Part shown: positions 8,182-63,043 of the stretch, piece after piece
How positions within the stretch are numbered: position 1 is the stretch's first letter
Layout: each line of letters opens with the position of its first letter
NCBI GenBank assembly: GCA_017415145.1
Contig: JAFQJE010000001.1
Location: 1 to 64,000, forward strand
Reading direction: 5' to 3'
DNA: 64,000 nucleotides
Source of the DNA: Clostridia bacterium
GTDB taxonomy: Bacteria; Bacillota; Clostridia; UBA1381; UBA9506
Translations under genes and position numbers: made by a program
Notes under the pieces: generated by a model
Told to the model about the DNA's origin: nothing
Database searches by the model: none
The model's input: the letters and a program-made list of their open reading frames with translations, nothing else

Positions 8182-8497
8182 TTGTGTTTCCTCCTTATAA
8201 ATTTTGTGTCTGTGAATTGGAACGACAGCATCTTTTTTTGAAAACCGAGCCGGGTGTTTTGCGGCATCTCATAAATAATGCCGAAAACCGTATCGGTCTC
8301 CGGGTTCAAGATGTAGTCTTCTTCTGCACAAACGGACACACGCGCAAAAAGGGCATAGTTGCCCCGTTCTTGCCAAATAGTATTACCGTTTTTGCAATGA
8401 CTCTGTCGCCCGGTTTCAATGAATCGGACATTCTCCATGGAAAAACCCGCGTCGCTACGCGGCAACCTCCCACTTCCTCGTATGCCATGTCACAGCT
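8182..8497 (-). promoter_or_regulatory. S10 operon 5' leader with early terminator-like hairpin
   Basis: About 310 nt of untranslated leader lie between the predicted start of transcription and rpsJ. Near its 5' end a perfect 6-bp stem CCGCGT/ACGCGG with a 4-nt loop (8447-8462) is followed on the minus strand by GTTTTT, like a short intrinsic terminator or pause site. The leader is richer in GC than other intergenic DNA here. Two open frames cross it (8306-8488 and 8157-8465), but neither has a well-placed ribosome-binding site. Confidence 0.6.
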
Positions 8498-19436: not shown

Positions 19437-19665
19437 ACTGTTTTTGTCTAATTTTGTGCTTTTGCACTCGCATATTGCCAAGTCTTCTGACTTATGTATT
19501 ATGGATTTCTCCTGCGAAATACTGCCTACCTTCCCTTTAAGTGGCCGACTTTCGTCGCGGCAATACCCCTCATACAAATACAGCTGTGGGTACAGTTACG
19601 GATTCTAACCGTCTTCCTTTTATCAGCGGCATTGCTACCGCCGACGACAATACGTCTTATTAAAT
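19437..19665 (-). promoter_or_regulatory. Cobalamin (B12) riboswitch
   Basis: On the minus strand the conserved elements appear in order: GGTTAGAATCCGTAACTGTA followed by CCCACAGCTG, then GCCACTT with AAAGGGAAGGTAGGCAG, and the B12 box AAGTCAGAAGACTTGGCA (near 19475-19495). These match the adenosylcobalamin aptamer consensus (AAxTCCxxxxCxGxxCCCGC, GCCACTG, GGGAAGG, AGTCAGAAGACCTGCC). A terminator follows directly. It should shut off the SLH/DUF4430/ECF operon when B12 is plentiful. Confidence 0.93.
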
Positions 19666-19672
19666 TGCTTAT

Positions 19673-42354: not shown

Positions 42355-42394
42355 ATATATATGATTATAAGTATATAATTAAGGGGATTTTTTT

Positions 42395-42470
42395 GCAACT
42401 GACGGATTGGCAGAGTTTACTGCCGGGAAGCAGAAAAATTTGGAATAATTGTCGACCGTCTGGGCAGCCC
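42395..42470 (+). promoter_or_regulatory. ZTP riboswitch (pfl motif) aptamer
   Basis: The conserved parts of the pfl motif are present in order: GCAACTGACGGATTGGCAG, CTGCCGGGAAGCAG, then after a variable spacer CGACCGTCTGGGCAGCCC. This RNA senses ZTP/ZMP, the signal of folate-dependent block in purine synthesis, and is commonly found before purE/purH genes. Here it precedes a purine operon that includes both 10-formyl-THF steps and glyA, which makes the one-carbon carrier. Confidence 0.93.
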
Positions 42471-42509
42471 GTTTACATAATTGTAGATAGGTCTGTCCAT
42501 TTTTGTTTT
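42461..42509 (+). terminator. Terminator of the ZTP riboswitch, sharing the aptamer 3' side
   Basis: TGGGCAG (42461-42467), part of the conserved ligand/pseudoknot segment, can pair with CTGTCCA (42493-42499), and inner bases (TTTAC 42472-42476 with GTAGA 42483-42487) extend the hairpin. TTTTTGTTTT follows. Ligand binding would hold TGGGC and block the terminator, giving expression when ZTP is high. Confidence 0.8.
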
Positions 42510-56524: not shown

Positions 56525-56570
56525 TTCTAATAAAAAAATCCCCGCATGTGCGGGGATTTTTTTATTAGAA
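56525..56570. terminator. Bidirectional terminator between degV and the pyr operon
   Basis: A perfect inverted repeat of about 21 bp, arms 56525-56545 and 56550-56570, loop of 4 nt (ATGT): it has a GC core CCCCGC/GCGGGG flanked by A7/T7, so it presents a T tract in both directions. The 3' end lies inside the last codons of the parvulin gene. Confidence 0.93.
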
Positions 56571-57328: not shown

Positions 57329-57745
57329 TTATTTTCCTTGGCTTTCACAATAGATGCATCTGTAAACTTTCTTCTCTCTGTCAGTCAACTTAAATATATG
57401 AGGAAGTTCCTGTTCAGTTGTTGTGATACATCTGGGGTTTTTGCATTTAATAACATTTTTAATTTCTGCAGGAGCTTCTAAATGCTCTCTTTTAAAGAGT
57501 TTTCCGTCTTTAATAACATTTACTGTTACACGTTCATCAAGATACCCTAGAACTTCAAGGTCGATATCAATCGCCTGGTCAATCTTTATAATATCTTTTT
57601 TGCCATGCTTTTTGCTTTCTGCATTTTTGATAATTGCTACCTGACAATCGAGCTTATCAAGCTCAAGTGCTCTATAAATTTCCATACACTTGCCTGCAGT
57701 TATATGGTCTAAAACGATACCGTCTTTAATCTGTCCTATAATCAT
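57329..57745 (-). CDS. pyrI: Aspartate carbamoyltransferase regulatory subunit
   Basis: 138 aa. Allosteric subunit that binds nucleotides and holds the PyrB trimers together. Zinc-binding cysteines at the C-terminus: KCKNPRCI and YRCIYCES. The N-terminal allosteric domain is seen in [19 protein letters not shown]. Overlaps pyrB by 4 nt. Its presence suggests feedback control by CTP. Confidence 0.95.
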
Positions 57746-58659
57746 TTCGTCGCCTCCTCTAAAACCTTTAAAATCAGCGCCATACGCATGAATTTCGCAT
57801 TTAGAACCTGCTTAAAGTAACACGCTCTGGGGTCTTCGTCTACTGCCACTGTGATTTCATTTACTCTCGGTAAGGGATGAAGAATAATCATATCAGACTT
57901 AGCAGGCATCAGCTTTTCGGGAGACAGAATGTAGCTGTCCTTTAAACGGATATAGTCCTGCTCATTGAAAAATCTTTCCTTCTGTACACGTGTCATGTAT
58001 AAGACATCAAGTTCGCCCATGTACTCTTCTAATGATGTTGTTTCCACATACTCCAGACCATGAGCCGCCATATCTTCAAGCATATAATCAGGGAGCTTTA
58101 ACTCCTCAGGAGAAATTAAAACAACCTTGATATTTTCGTATCTTGTAAGGGCGTGAATAAGGGAATGAACAGTTCTTCCGAATTTTAAATCTCCACAAAA
58201 TCCAACTGTCAGATTGTCAAGTGTTCCCTTTTCTCTGTGGATTGTGAGTAAATCCGCCAAAGTCTGAGTAGGGTGGTTGTGTCCGCCGTCACCTGCATTG
58301 ATTACAGGAATATCCGATGCCATTGTTGCAACTAATGCCGCACCCTCTTTGGGATGACGCATAGCAATAACATCTGCATAGCAGTTTACAACCTTGATTG
58401 TATCGTGTACGCTTTCACCTTTTGATGCAGATGATGACTCACCGTCAGAAATGCTCAATACATTTCCTCCAAGCTCATACATTGCCGCTTCAAAGCTCAA
58501 GCGTGTACGGGTAGATGGTTCGAAAAAGAGCGTGGCAAGTTTTTTATGCTTGCACTTCTCACGGTAATTATCGGGGTTTTGAATAATGTCTTCCGCAACA
58601 CTAATAAGCTCTGCAATTTCTTCTTTTGTAAGGTCGAGAATATCGATTACACTTCTCAT
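57742..58659 (-). CDS. pyrB: Aspartate carbamoyltransferase catalytic subunit
   Basis: 305 aa. Makes carbamoyl aspartate. Carbamoyl-phosphate loop [16 protein letters not shown], then the swinging-loop region [27 protein letters not shown] and [10 protein letters not shown] place the start at ATG 58657-58659, 10 nt after AAGGAG; an upstream ATG three codons earlier overlaps the RBS. Confidence 0.96.
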
Positions 58660-58686
58660 AATGCACATTCTCCTTTATGTAAATAA

Positions 58687-59316
58687 TTATTTTATCCAGG
58701 ACTCATCTGAAGGGTTATTACGAAAAGCAATAAGACGAGATTTGTCTTCAGGCTTTATGTAACCTGTTTCTGCAGCAACCTCTACTACTGCATCAAAGTT
58801 CGAAAGACTCACATTCTTGATGTTTGCATCAGTAAGTCTGTCAAGACCTTTCTGCATGCCGTATGTGAAGATGCTTACAACGCCTAAAACATCAGCACCG
58901 GCATCCCTCAATGACTCTACAACCTCAATAACGCTACCGCCTGTTGAGATTAAATCCTCAACAACTACAACCTTCTGACCCTTTTCTAACTTTCCTTCAA
59001 TTTTATTTTGTCTGCCGTGGTCTTTGTTACCTGAACGAACATAACCCATGGGGATACCCATAATGTGTCCGCAGATAGCGGCATGCGCGATACCTGCTGT
59101 TGATGTACCCATAAGCACTTCAACTTCAGGATAATGTTCCTTGATTTTCTCAACAAGACCGTTTTCCACGTGGTTTCTTACCTCGGGAGCGGTAAGAGTC
59201 AGTCTGTTGTCGCAGTAAATAGGGCTTTTGATGCCGCTTGCCCAGGTAAAGGGTTCTTCGGGGCGTAAGAATACTGCCTTGATGTCCAATAAATCTTTAG
59301 CTATTAATTTTTCCAT
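58687..59316 (-). CDS. pyrE: Orotate phosphoribosyltransferase
   Basis: 209 aa. Couples orotate to PRPP to form OMP. PRPP-binding motif [20 protein letters not shown]; other blocks [20 protein letters not shown] and [20 protein letters not shown]. Start ATG 59314-59316 after AGAGGT; a TTG seven codons upstream is less likely. Confidence 0.96.
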
Positions 59317-59329
59317 TTTTTCGTACCTC

Positions 59330-60028
59330 TTATCCAATAAATTCTTTTACACATCTTCTGTAGGCTGCTACGGGGTCTACCGCTGCTGTAATCGGTCTGC
59401 CCACAACAATATAGTCAGAGCCGATTTCTTTTGCACGCTCCGGCGTTGTAACTCTTACCTGATCACCAATATCGCCATCGGCAAATCTCACGCCGGGCGT
59501 AACTGTCAGAAACTCTCTACCGCAAGTATCGTGTACCTTGCCGGCTTCTAAGGGTGAGCAAACTACACCGTCTAAACCTGCATCTCGTGCGGTACGCGCA
59601 TAACTCATAACAACCTCATCAATGGGCTTGTCTATTAAAATTTCATCCGTCATTCTTTCCTGACTTGTAGATGTAAGCTGAGTTACTGCAATGAGTAGCG
59701 GACGTGTGCCGTCTTCACGTGTAAGACCCTCGATTGCAGCAGTCATCATAGCAGATGTGCCTGCTGCATGTAAATTACACATATCAACATCTAAGCGAGA
59801 TAAAACCTCCATAGACTTTTTGACTGTATTGGGGATATCGTGAAGCTTTAAATCAAGAAAAATCTTATGACCTCTTGCCTTGATTTCTCTAACTATCTCA
59901 GGACCTTCAGCGTAGAACAATTCCATACCTATTTTTACAAAGGGCTTTTCCTCTGTAAACTTGTCCAAAAATGCTAAAGCTTCTTTCTTACCTGCAAAGT
60001 CGCAGGCAATGATTACGTCTTTTCCCAT
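59330..60028 (-). CDS. pyrF: Orotidine 5'-phosphate decarboxylase
   Basis: 232 aa, TIM barrel. Converts OMP to UMP. The catalytic Lys/Asp array is [35 protein letters not shown] and [19 protein letters not shown] are the phosphate-binding ends. It starts at the stop of pyrD with a one-base overlap. Confidence 0.96.
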
Positions 60029-60939
60029 TAGTGAGCGCCTCCTATTATATCTGTTAATTTATTAATTCCGTATTTTTTCATAACTCGTGGTAAATCCTCG
60101 ATAATATCACGGCAAGCGTAAGGGTTAACTAAATTTTCTGCCCCTACCTCTACTGCGGTAGCACCGGCAAGCATCATTTCTATAACATCTTCTGCACGAG
60201 CTACACCGCCCATACCGATAACGGGGATTTTCACTGCTTCATATACCTGATAAACCATACGAACAGCCACAGGTAAGATTGCTCTTCCTGAAAAACCGCC
60301 CATCTTATTTGCAACCACAGGTTTCTTTGTCTTTAAATCTATTTTCATACCAAGCAGCGTATTGATTAAGCTGATGCCATCAGCACCTGCTTCTTCGCAG
60401 GCAACCGCAATTGATGCAATGTCCGTTACATTGGGTGAAAGCTTTACATAAACAGGCTTGGTCGTTACAGCCTTAACTGCTTTTACAACCTGTGCTGCAT
60501 TATCAGCAGACGTTCCAAAAGCCATACCTCCATTGTGAACGTTGGGACATGAGATATTAACCTCTAACCAACCTACCTGAGGGCATTTGTCCAAAAGCTC
60601 GCAGGTATACACATATTCTTCAACAGAAAAACCGCTGACATTTGCCATAACAGGTTTTGAAAAACACTGCTTTAACTTAGGTAATTCTTCTTCAATGACC
60701 TTGTGAACACCGGGATTCTGTAATCCTACTGAGTTTATCATACCCTCACGACATTCAGCAATTCTGGGGGTGGGATTTCCAAAACGCGCATCCTTAGTTG
60801 TCCCTTTGAATGAAAATGTGCCCAGCATATTTATATCGTAAAGTTCTGCAAATTCATAACCAAAACCGAATGTTCCACTAGCAGGGATTATAGGATTTGA
60901 AAGCTCTATTCCCGAAAGGATTACTTTTGTATCTACCAT
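60028..60939 (-). CDS. pyrD: Dihydroorotate dehydrogenase class 1B catalytic subunit
   Basis: 303 aa FMN protein that oxidises dihydroorotate and passes electrons through PyrK to NAD+. Active-site C131 is in [13 protein letters not shown], typical of class 1 enzymes. Start ATG 60937-60939 after GGGAGGAG; longer frames overlap pyrK. It overlaps pyrK by 7 nt. Confidence 0.96.
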
Positions 60940-61664
60940 ATTATCTCCTCCCTTACCAATACAGGGCCGTCTTTGCATATTCTCTTGTTGCCGTACTTTG
61001 TCTTGCAGGTGCAACCCATACAAGCACCAAAACCGCAACCCATACGCTCTTCAAAGCTGAACTGACCTGAACCTTTTGCCGTTGTCTCAATTGCTTTAAA
61101 CATCGGCATGGGACCACATGTATAAAAATATGTATAATCAAGATTTTTTAAAACGTCTGTAACAAAACCTTTTGTTCCTACGCTTCCGTCAACTGTAGTA
61201 ATGTAAACATCATCACAGATTGCACAAAATTCATTGTAAGCAAAAATTTCACTTTCTTTATTAAAACCCAGAATCACCTGAGGACGCTTACCTTCGGCAA
61301 TCAACTTTTTAGCTAAACCGTACATAGGCGGAATACCAACACCACCGCCGATGAGTACAGGTCTTTCCCTCGAAACTGAGGTATCAAAACCATTACCAAG
61401 ACCAACTAGGCAATCAAGTTTTTCTCCTGCTTTAATGTCTGTCATCTGCTCTGTGCCTTCTCCAACCACCTTGTAGATAATTGTTAAGGTTTTATCGTCC
61501 CAATCGTAGATTGAGATAGGACGACGCAGGAAAAGCCCTGAAAGCTTAATATTTATAAACTGACCGGGAGCGGTAATTGCATTCGTTTCCCCACTTAACA
61601 CCATTTTATATACATTTTCAGTTAATTTCTCATTAGAAACCACCGTATAATACGCACTTATCAT
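60933..61664 (-). CDS. pyrK: Dihydroorotate dehydrogenase electron-transfer subunit
   Basis: 243 aa. FAD/NAD domain (FLRRPISIYD at 45-54, LIGGGVGIPPMYGLAKKL, YTCGPMPMFKAIE) and a C-terminal [2Fe-2S] cluster with C210, C215, C218 and C230 (MGCGFGACMGCTC...ICKDGPV). It joins PyrD to form the NAD-dependent class 1B enzyme. Start ATG 61662-61664; overlaps pyrC by 4 nt. Confidence 0.96.
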   Translation of the reverse strand: MISAYYTVVSNEKLTENVYKMVLSGETNAITAPGQFINIKLSGLFLRRPISIYDWDDKTLTIIYKVVGEGTEQMTDIKAGEKLDCLVGLGNGFDTSVSRERPVLIGGGVGIPPMYGLAKKLIAEGKRPQVILGFNKESEIFAYNEFCAICDDVYITTVDGSVGTKGFVTDVLKNLDYTYFYTCGPMPMFKAIETTAKGSGQFSFEERMGCGFGACMGCTCKTKYGNKRICKDGPVLVREEIIW

Positions 61665-62875
61665 GTATCTTCCCTCCACACGAGCTTTCCATCACAGAAT
61701 GTAGCCATACATTTACCAAACACTTTTGTGCCGGTAAAAGGCGAGCTTTTTCCGTTTGATTTAAAATCATCAGGGTTTATTTCATACTCACAATTCAAAT
61801 CAAAAACTGTCAAATCGTTTTTATTTATTTCAAACCCAAAACGCTTTCTCGGGTTAATTGCCATAACCTCAATCAGCTTATCCAAGGTGATAACACCTTT
61901 TCTTACAAGATGTGTGTACATTGTGGCAAATGCAGTCTCTAAACCTACAACACCCATCAGACTTTTCTCTAAACCCCTGCCTTTTTCATCAGCACTGTGA
62001 GGTGCATGGTCTGTTGCAATCATATCAATAGTGCCATCTACCAATCCTTCAATGAGTGCCGCCCTGTCACGTTCTGACCTGATTGGCGGATTCATTTTAA
62101 AACGTGCATCCTCTTCGATGTCCATATCAGTAAGTATCAGATAATGAGGTGCAGTTTCGCAGGTAATGTCAACACCCTCCGCCTTAGCTTTTCTTATTAT
62201 ATCAACACTTTCAGCGGTTGAAATATGACAAACGTGATAAGAAACACCTGTCTTTTTTACAAGCTCAATGTCACGGGCAATCTGCTGCCATTCACTCTCA
62301 CGGCATATTCCTCTGTGACCATGGATACGGGCATACTCACCATCGTGAATATATCCTCCACGAAGTAATCCATTCACTTCGCAATGGGCAACAATCATCT
62401 TACCTAAAGACTTTGCTTTTTTCATTGCTTTTTCCATAAGCTCATCACTTTGCACACCGCGACCATCATCAGAAAAACCGCAGACAAACTGTGCCATATC
62501 TTCCATATCAGAAAGAATTTTCCCTTGCTGACCTTCGGTGATAGTGCCGTATGGATGAACCTTTATATGAGCCGTCTGGTCTATTTTTTTTAGCTGAATA
62601 TTTAAAGTCGATAAACTGTCAGGACAAGGATTTAAGTTTGGCATAGTGCAAACATCTGTATATCCGCCACGAGCCGCCGCCAAAGAACCCGATTCGATAG
62701 TTTCTTTATACTCAAAACCCGGTTCACGAAAATGCACATGAACGTCACAAAAAGCAGGAAAAGCCACACATCCGCCAAGATTTAAAACCGTAACGTCTGT
62801 TGTGTTTTTTTCTCCTACTACGGGATTTTTTTCACTTTCATCCCAAAGCTTTACGCCCTTTAATAAATAGTTCAT
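61661..62875 (-). CDS. pyrC: Dihydroorotase
   Basis: 404 aa, type I (PyrC/AllB-like) zinc amidohydrolase that closes carbamoyl aspartate to dihydroorotate. Metal ligands: DVHVHFREPGFEYKETIESG, MIVAHCEVNGL, HVCHISTAES, and the catalytic Asp region MIATDHAPHSADEKG. First gene of the operon. The RBS is AAAGGAGCC. Confidence 0.95.
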   Translation of the reverse strand: MNYLLKGVKLWDESEKNPVVGEKNTTDVTVLNLGGCVAFPAFCDVHVHFREPGFEYKETIESGSLAAARGGYTDVCTMPNLNPCPDSLSTLNIQLKKIDQTAHIKVHPYGTITEGQQGKILSDMEDMAQFVCGFSDDGRGVQSDELMEKAMKKAKSLGKMIVAHCEVNGLLRGGYIHDGEYARIHGHRGICRESEWQQIARDIELVKKTGVSYHVCHISTAESVDIIRKAKAEGVDITCETAPHYLILTDMDIEEDARFKMNPPIRSERDRAALIEGLVDGTIDMIATDHAPHSADEKGRGLEKSLMGVVGLETAFATMYTHLVRKGVITLDKLIEVMAINPRKRFGFEINKNDLTVFDLNCEYEINPDDFKSNGKSSPFTGTKVFGKCMATFCDGKLVWREDT

Positions 62876-63008
62876 TATCCGGCTCCTTTCAGTCTAAATA
62901 CGCAAATAAAAAGGCCTTGTTGATAACAAGGCCTCAATTTCAGCACAAAGGGATGCATTAAACATCAATTAAAACCTTGCAGATAGTCCCAACTACCTTA
63001 AGATTATC
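62876..63008 (-). promoter_or_regulatory. pyr operon attenuator leader
   Basis: About 130 nt. Reading the minus strand: hairpin GGTAGT-TGGG-ACTATC (62982-62997), then GCAAGG (62975-62980), then a strong terminator AGGCCTTGTT/AACAAGGCCT with T run (62908-62934). GCAAGG can pair with CCTTGT in the 5' arm of the terminator, forming a competing antiterminator. I see no PyrR binding-loop consensus. Control by attenuation is inferred from structure. Confidence 0.7.
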
Positions 63009-63014
63009 ATATCT

Positions 63015-63043
63015 ATTTTAGCATATATGATACTTTGTGTCAA
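63015..63043 (-). promoter_or_regulatory. Promoter of the pyr operon
   Basis: -35 TTGACA (63038-63043), 17-nt spacer, -10 TAAAAT (63015-63020), minus strand. The -35 box ends 4 nt from the stop codon of the MATE gene, and no terminator separates them, so readthrough from upstream is possible. Confidence 0.85.

Follow-up and report, generated by a model that had tools for sequence, protein, structure and literature searches.

A pyrC leader in a Clostridia genus without detected PyrR looks like a PyrR-type attenuator with a changed binding loop

The leader of the pyrC operon in a Clostridia bacterium probably derives, on balance, from a PyrR attenuator that has been orphaned; it would be antiterminated by default, and a 5' hairpin, P1, would act without PyrR and cause partial termination. 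This 168-nt region separates a MATE-like gene from pyrC on the minus strand, in the 64,000-nt stretch of DNA that was analysed as a whole (hereafter the window: assembly GCA_017415145.1, contig JAFQJE010000001.1, positions 1-64,000; genome G000). According to this proposal, P1 derives from the loop that PyrR used to bind and would have the role of an anti-antiterminator. The antiterminator would form instead when the 3' arm of P1 pairs with the terminator 5' arm, and by predicted energies it would win once its second half is transcribed, so that read-through would be the default; when P1 holds, the terminator would form and pyr transcription would stop. The genus would have lost pyrR, the loop recognised by PyrR would have drifted, and the rest of the switch would have been kept. 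The intrinsically stable P1 would then compete with the antiterminator, setting the fraction of transcripts that end early without any help from PyrR. The three-state architecture, the absence of a PyrR site and the non-detection of PyrR in the genus are indicated by sequence; that the OFF branch still works is what we infer.

A bolder version, in which the strengthened P1 of this lineage would be a protein-free pyrimidine-responsive attenuator, operating at pyrC and uraA through folding kinetics and nucleotide-dependent polymerase speed, is speculative and we hold it to be rather unlikely. The genus nevertheless offers a natural experiment on an RNA switch after loss of its protein, in which the loop changes, one genus retains the framework of the switch, and a sister genus shows none of it. 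If P1 still controls read-through, this would show a protein-dependent attenuator becoming autonomous. Neither PyrR-less pyr attenuators nor decayed PyrR loops were described in the accessible parts of the papers reached by our literature search, which included PMC3766115, PMC7430163, PMC6296669 and PMC2965389; we make no claim of absence.

Architecture of the pyrC leader

A preliminary description of this DNA, made from the letters, had reported a promoter, a 16-nt hairpin with loop TGGG, an antiterminator segment (GCAAGG) and a terminator in the leader. Scans and folds confirmed all four, and the hairpin was extended to the larger P1. The features of the leader and of the operon are the following.

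57329-61679, minus strand: pyrK, pyrD, pyrF, pyrE, pyrB and pyrI, in that order (ORFs)
61661-62875, minus strand: pyrC, dihydroorotase of 404 aa, first gene of the operon, named by inspecting the translation; relatives found
62889-62883, minus strand: SD-like AAAGGAG, before the pyrC start at 62875
62935-62904, minus strand: intrinsic terminator, an 11-pair stem (62935-62911) followed by a T-rich tail
62938-62926, minus strand: antiterminator 3' half, ATTGAGGCCTTGT, from prefix folds; overlaps the terminator 5' arm
62966-62952, minus strand: P2, small hairpin GATGT/GCATC within the antiterminator loop, from folding and prefix folds
62980-62968, minus strand: antiterminator 5' half, GCAAGGTTTTAAT, from prefix folds; overlaps the P1 3' arm
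63005-62973, minus strand: P1, putative anti-antiterminator hairpin, from folding and comparison with leader L009
63043-63015, minus strand: pyrC promoter, with -35 TTGACA (63043-63038), a 17-nt spacer and an extended -10 TAAAAT (63020-63015)

Among the genes downstream of pyrC, pyrE matches PF00156, and the others are named by inspection only. The promoter agrees with the consensus at 11 of 12 positions and differs at one of 30 nt from that of L009, the pyrC leader of a congener; two promoter-like sites were present in the 501 bases scanned for 1.6 expected, a count that alone is uninformative. A single terminator-like site (62935-62911) was found, compared to 0.3 expected (sd 0.5). P1 is made of a lower stem AATCTT/AAGGTT, a short internal loop AA/TGC, an upper stem GGTAG/CTATC and a terminal loop TTGGGA at 62992-62987, and the 16-nt hairpin GGTAGT-TGGG-ACTATC (62997-62982) is its upper part. 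The segment GCAAGG (62980-62975) begins the helix able to pair with the terminator 5' arm (62938-62926): the 3' arm of P1, GCAAGGTTTTAAT, is predicted to pair with ATTGAGGCCTTGT on the 5' side of the terminator.

When successive prefixes of the transcript were folded, the 82-nt prefix contained P1 (-16.1 kcal/mol), and those of 86, 90 and 94 nt contained the antiterminator helix (-19.0 to -24.3 kcal/mol). A transcript ending within the terminator 5' arm adopted the antiterminator fold, and the full-length leader folded into P1 plus terminator; the prefixes of L009 behaved similarly. Three mutually exclusive helices, the anti-antiterminator, the antiterminator and the terminator, are thus predicted in the pyrC leader, and these predicted folds match the three-state logic of PyrR attenuators as summarised in the accessible part of PMC7430163. 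The whole leader was slightly more stable than its shuffled versions (z -1.84, with 10 of 200 shuffles as stable), and its part preceding the terminator had a z of -0.45. It is therefore not exceptionally stable for its composition, and the evidence for a switch is its architecture and comparison rather than its stability. From the architecture and prefix folds, control by attenuation, proposed at the outset, appears likely. A pseudoknot between the loop and downstream sequence (GGGA with TCCC), seen by eye in the window, was dropped upon its absence from L009.

P1 and the PyrR binding loop

Searching the leader against Rfam gave no family match, and PyrR (RF00515) was absent even at E up to 5; the sole match within that limit was AbsR28, at 18.6 bits for a threshold of 50. 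A new riboswitch of the Rfam type was dropped, the leader having no family match. Rfam is weak in this clade: among eight loci of relatives in which the canonical loop is clear, only L126 passes the PyrR threshold. A missing PyrR match does not imply a new RNA class.

We thus turned to a comparison set of 80 pyrC loci from related Clostridia. Sixteen of them have, near the leader 5' end, the canonical loop TCTTTAA-stem-CNGNGA-stem-GGCAAGA, ten found by regular expression and six by eye (L068, L073, L080, L104, L106 and L122). Hexaloop positions C1, G3 and G5 are invariant in all 16 aligned loops, which is partly circular since the motif guided the selection. In an alignment of 11 sequences, 10 of them distinct, compensated changes affect 5 of the 11 stem pairs (0 of 500 shuffles). 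PyrR was found in 15 of the 16 genomes with a canonical loop, compared to 7 of 62 other searched genomes (Fisher p 6e-10), the lone exception among the 16 being L106 in G026. In this PyrR search, the first 48 genomes had been picked to favour loci with a loop or a terminator, and the remainder were then covered except for L117.

A model, R3, was made of 11 canonical PyrR loops from upstream of pyrC in these relatives; the five others (L078, L081, L106, L122 and L126) were omitted from its alignment for length differences or odd sequence. Over the 64-kb window and loci L009, L010, L138 and L139, with filters off and E up to 10, R3 matched no leader. On the window leader alone (61 nt), its best match fell on P1 in the right orientation and scored 7.1 bits (E 0.054), and the L009 leader scored 8.8 bits, compared to 38.3-58.4 bits at six sites of the PyrR-bearing genomes G034, G038 and G057 and 32.3 bits at one site of G048; two of these seven benchmark leader sites, in four PyrR-bearing genomes, are training sequences. 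These scores support the initial reading that no PyrR consensus loop is present. Whole-genome searches gave matches outside leaders, which we took as noise, at 20.1 and 19.4 bits in G000 (E 3.1 and 4.3) and at 22.9 and 20.3 bits in G001 (E 1.6 and 4.8). R3 scores at degenerate sites are weak, and homology would rest mainly on position and architecture.

Two hallmarks of the binding site are changed in P1. The hexaloop, CNGNGA in canonical relatives, is TTGGGA in the window and CTGGGG in L009, and the 5' side of the internal loop has 2 nt (AA) compared to about 5 (UAAAG) in canonical loops. A purine-rich internal bulge is given as crucial for the PyrR binding site in the accessible part of PMC7430163. 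P1 keeps the position of the canonical loop, its lower stem, the layout of a stem followed by a hexanucleotide, and the CAAGG junction. It looks, as indicated by sequence, like a descendant of the PyrR binding loop in which hexaloop and purine bulge have changed. Since position, architecture and lower-stem sequence point to such a changed loop, the leader, for which a new RNA class had been considered possible, need not be one, and would be a variant of the PyrR-type attenuator.

As in PyrR attenuators (RF00515; B. subtilis pyr operon), a promoter is followed by an anti-antiterminator hairpin at the 5' end; the 3' arm of this hairpin doubles as the 5' half of an antiterminator, which overlaps a terminator, and pyr genes lie downstream. 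The lower stem and CAAG(A/G) context are common to the canonical loops of relatives. Unlike them, the window leader has no CNGNGA hexaloop, a shorter purine-rich bulge and a P1 that is stabler than most canonical loops, and pyrR was not found in the genus.

In the order to which the window belongs, 62 of 95 genomes match PyrR, 61 of them over the cut-off, and R3 matches 18 of the 95 when E is limited to 0.02, 17 of these being PyrR-bearing (p 0.005; stricter filters lose weak matches). By eye, canonical pyrC loops were recognised in five PyrR-bearing genomes of the order that have the same pyrC type (G135, G129, G124, G132 and G134), and none was seen in G122, G123, G126 and G009, all without PyrR; L162 (G133) had no usable leader.

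Two side observations concern PyrR elsewhere. At L096 7947-7985 (G046), a canonical PyrR loop stands right before the pyrC start and a terminator was not found, perhaps reflecting translational control by PyrR. In another genus of the order, a pyrR match in two pieces with a stop (G083:C17:48382-48890) perhaps represents PyrR loss under way.

Other leaders of the genus and of a sister genus

Attenuators were found upstream of pyrC in three species of the genus and upstream of uraA in two. The uraA leaders scored 10.4 bits (G000) and 9.8 bits (G001) with R3, and their loops read CAGGT and TGCGA, respectively. They look intermediate, with loops altered similarly to that of P1. Prefix folds of the G000 uraA leader did not show the antiterminator, which by eye has two mismatches (L138). 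In the same leader (L138 1319-1395), the P1 loop GCAGGT is by eye complementary to the terminator-loop region ACCTGC, a feature absent in G001.

In the pyrC leader of G001 (L010), a terminator is accompanied by an antiterminator helix and by a hairpin with a 6-nt loop, TGGTA-CGCAAA-TGCCA. R3 did not recognise a PyrR-like P1 in this leader (0.7 bits), and we infer that the hairpin is a further-diverged P1. By eye, no attenuator was present at pyrC or uraA in the sister genus G009, itself without PyrR, which suggests that the switch is dispensable.

Is the switch still used?

Between genomes G000 and G002, about 50% of the four-fold sites differ (65 of 139 for pyrC, 61 of 116 for the upstream MATE-like gene). 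Between the window and L009, 34 of the last 35 aligned leader positions, covering the terminator, are identical, the sole difference being the first position. Within P1, 5 of 33 positions have changed, including both members of the top pair in a compensated exchange (T-A to C-G), and the middle of the leader differs at 10 of 34 ungapped positions. The conservation of P1, judged from these two close leader sequences only, has a p of about 1e-4 relative to the four-fold rate and is marginal (p about 0.05) relative to the leader's own middle. The covariation that had been proposed as a check in relatives was thus met with in one pair in L009. Wide leader conservation was dropped: the whole-leader model R1 finds 2 of 95 genomes of the order (the window and G002), and among 25 sources it was convincing in the window and L009 only.

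These data bear on the possibility that the leader is a pure relic: with PyrR gone, the antiterminator would always form and the operon would be constitutively on, P1 and terminator either decaying or being kept as a stop for the upstream gene. Loops that drifted differently at each site (TTGGGA, CTGGGG, CGCAAA and those of uraA) are indeed expected in the absence of a partner, the prefix folds of both window and L009 default to the antiterminator, and G009 by eye shows no attenuators. Transcripts reading through from the upstream gene might also be what the terminator ends. However, a 34-nt identity in the terminator and a compensated change in P1 despite such four-fold divergence argue against mere decay, as does the retention of an attenuator by three species before pyrC and by two before uraA. 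Furthermore, isolated P1 is predicted at -8.9 kcal/mol in the window and -9.2 in L009, stabler than 15 of the 16 canonical segments (range -3.4 to -10.2). Other P1-type hairpins of the genus are at -4.5 (G001 pyrC), -5.9 (G000 uraA) and -9.9 kcal/mol (G001 uraA), so that high P1 stability is not general. Altogether we regard a pure relic as unlikely, if the foremost of the alternatives to a P1 that still acts.

Possible leader peptides and other sensors

The E. coli pyrBI operon is controlled by a coupled, UTP-sensitive attenuator, and a coupled mechanism was among the initial suggestions for the pyrC leader. A leader peptide starting at 62965 would be translated into the terminator during a polymerase pause. 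The ATG has an SD-like AAGG at equal spacing in window and L009, the window frame crosses the terminator (23 codons), and that of L009 stops 2 nt before it (8 codons); as in pyrBI, a terminator precedes pyr genes and a weak ATG frame reaches it. Moreover, a convincing pyrBI-like leader exists in a genome of the same order in which PyrR was not found (L165). Unlike pyrBI, the window leader has an antiterminator structure and no conserved frame: window and L009 disagree in both the frame and its length, and no such frame is listed for L010. The AAGG is weak and lies hidden in P1 as well as in the antiterminator, and the window ORF is not U-rich, unlike that of L165. We judge coupling quite improbable here.

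Leader L165 itself (1261-1383; G126, PyrR not found) has an SD and a U-rich ORF of 21 codons, which stops 6 nt short of the terminator, and is a candidate UTP-sensitive coupled attenuator in Clostridia. Other short leaders were noticed. Upstream of 8001 in L047 (G020, PyrR not over the cut-off), the pyrC leader has a good SD and a 6-codon ORF, MQGSDL, with a stop 2 nt before the terminator. Loci L056, L069 and L071, from three genomes with no PyrR over the cut-off, have in common a very short pyrC leader, GATAAATACAGCGGC-TyGCCGC, immediately followed by a terminator, a putative minimal attenuator.

A new sensor, either a metabolite or another RNA-binding protein, might recognise P1 through its TGGG loop and close the switch. 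The UGGG loop is common to window and L009 although its closing pair has changed in a compensated way, and P1 is retained without PyrR. Against this, the G000 uraA and G001 pyrC leaders have different loops, so that no common recognition motif was seen, and R1 finds the leader in just two of the 95 genomes of the order; we therefore give such a sensor little chance. ANTAR proteins bind dual hexaloops obeying an A1/G4 rule; an ANTAR-type target was dropped, the leader having a single hairpin and loops that do not fit.

Reiterative transcription controls pyrG in Gram-positive bacteria, where a pyrimidine gene is attenuated with no protein regulator. The pyrC leader would resemble it in this respect, but its expected start (GATATG, predicted) has no homopolymer run. 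With no run of three identical bases near that start, the reiterative mechanism put forward earlier is not suggested by the sequence.

Probable loss of pyrR in the genus

Whether pyrR is in the genome had been singled out as a check, and the gene was not found. The NCBIfam PyrR model was over the cut-off in none of the three genomes of the genus, all incomplete (85, 74 and 54%; G000, of 1.12 Mb, is the 85% one), compared to 15 of 17 others in the family. The five family genomes (of 20) without PyrR over the cut-off are the three genus members, G009, and G008, which is 67% complete and likewise misses a pyrC match. In G000, inspection assigned the seven ORFs of the PRTase family to Hpt, Prs, Apt-like, Upp, PyrE, ComF and PurF.

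Synteny was then examined in six PyrR-bearing genomes of the window's order (G135, G136, G124, G132, G134 and G129). The first four have pyrR directly after uraA; G134 has uraA, one gene, pyrR and spoVAD, and G129 has pyrR without uraA in the stretch taken. In G000, spoVAD starts 90 bases past uraA on an unbroken contig and pyrR is absent between them, at the place where its same-order relative carries it. The spoVAD of G000 and that of G134 are 53% identical, both over the NCBIfam spoVAD cut-off, and uraA of G000 is 62% identical to that of G124, which is followed by pyrR. G001 has a different gene after uraA and no pyrR beside it; the contigs of G000 and G001 run at least 1.3 kb past uraA, and the uraA match of G002, a fragment at a contig end, is uninformative. 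With uraA and spoVAD adjacent and pyrR absent, a gap in the assembly is a less likely explanation for G000 than a real loss of the gene. An arrangement with pyrR upstream of uraA as the normal one was dropped: it holds in 6 of 8 more distant PyrR-bearing regions and not in the window's order, where pyrR comes after uraA.

The least probable explanation is that a PyrR encoded in an unassembled part was missed and recognises the altered loop. The genus genomes are incomplete, L098 shows that PyrR can coexist with a non-canonical pyrC loop, and misses do happen, as in G125 (74% complete), where a canonical pyrC loop was seen by eye and PyrR not found; yet three independent absences at once would have a probability of about 2% (0.15 x 0.26 x 0.46), the pyr operon of the window is without pyrR whereas pyrC and pyrR share a contig, about 1 kb apart, in the 15 PyrR-bearing genomes of the family (whose operon order differs from that of the window), and the synteny around uraA in G000 and G001 lowers this explanation further.

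Other features of the window

Three RNA elements of the window were above the Rfam threshold: a ZMP/ZTP riboswitch (42385-42472, plus strand), a cobalamin riboswitch (19460-19666, minus strand) and an S10-Clostridia ribosomal leader (8403-8486, minus strand). Between convergent ORFs, at 56532-56563, lies an A/T-flanked inverted repeat, AAAAAAATCCCCGCATGTGCGGGGATTTTTTT, which is probably a two-way terminator.
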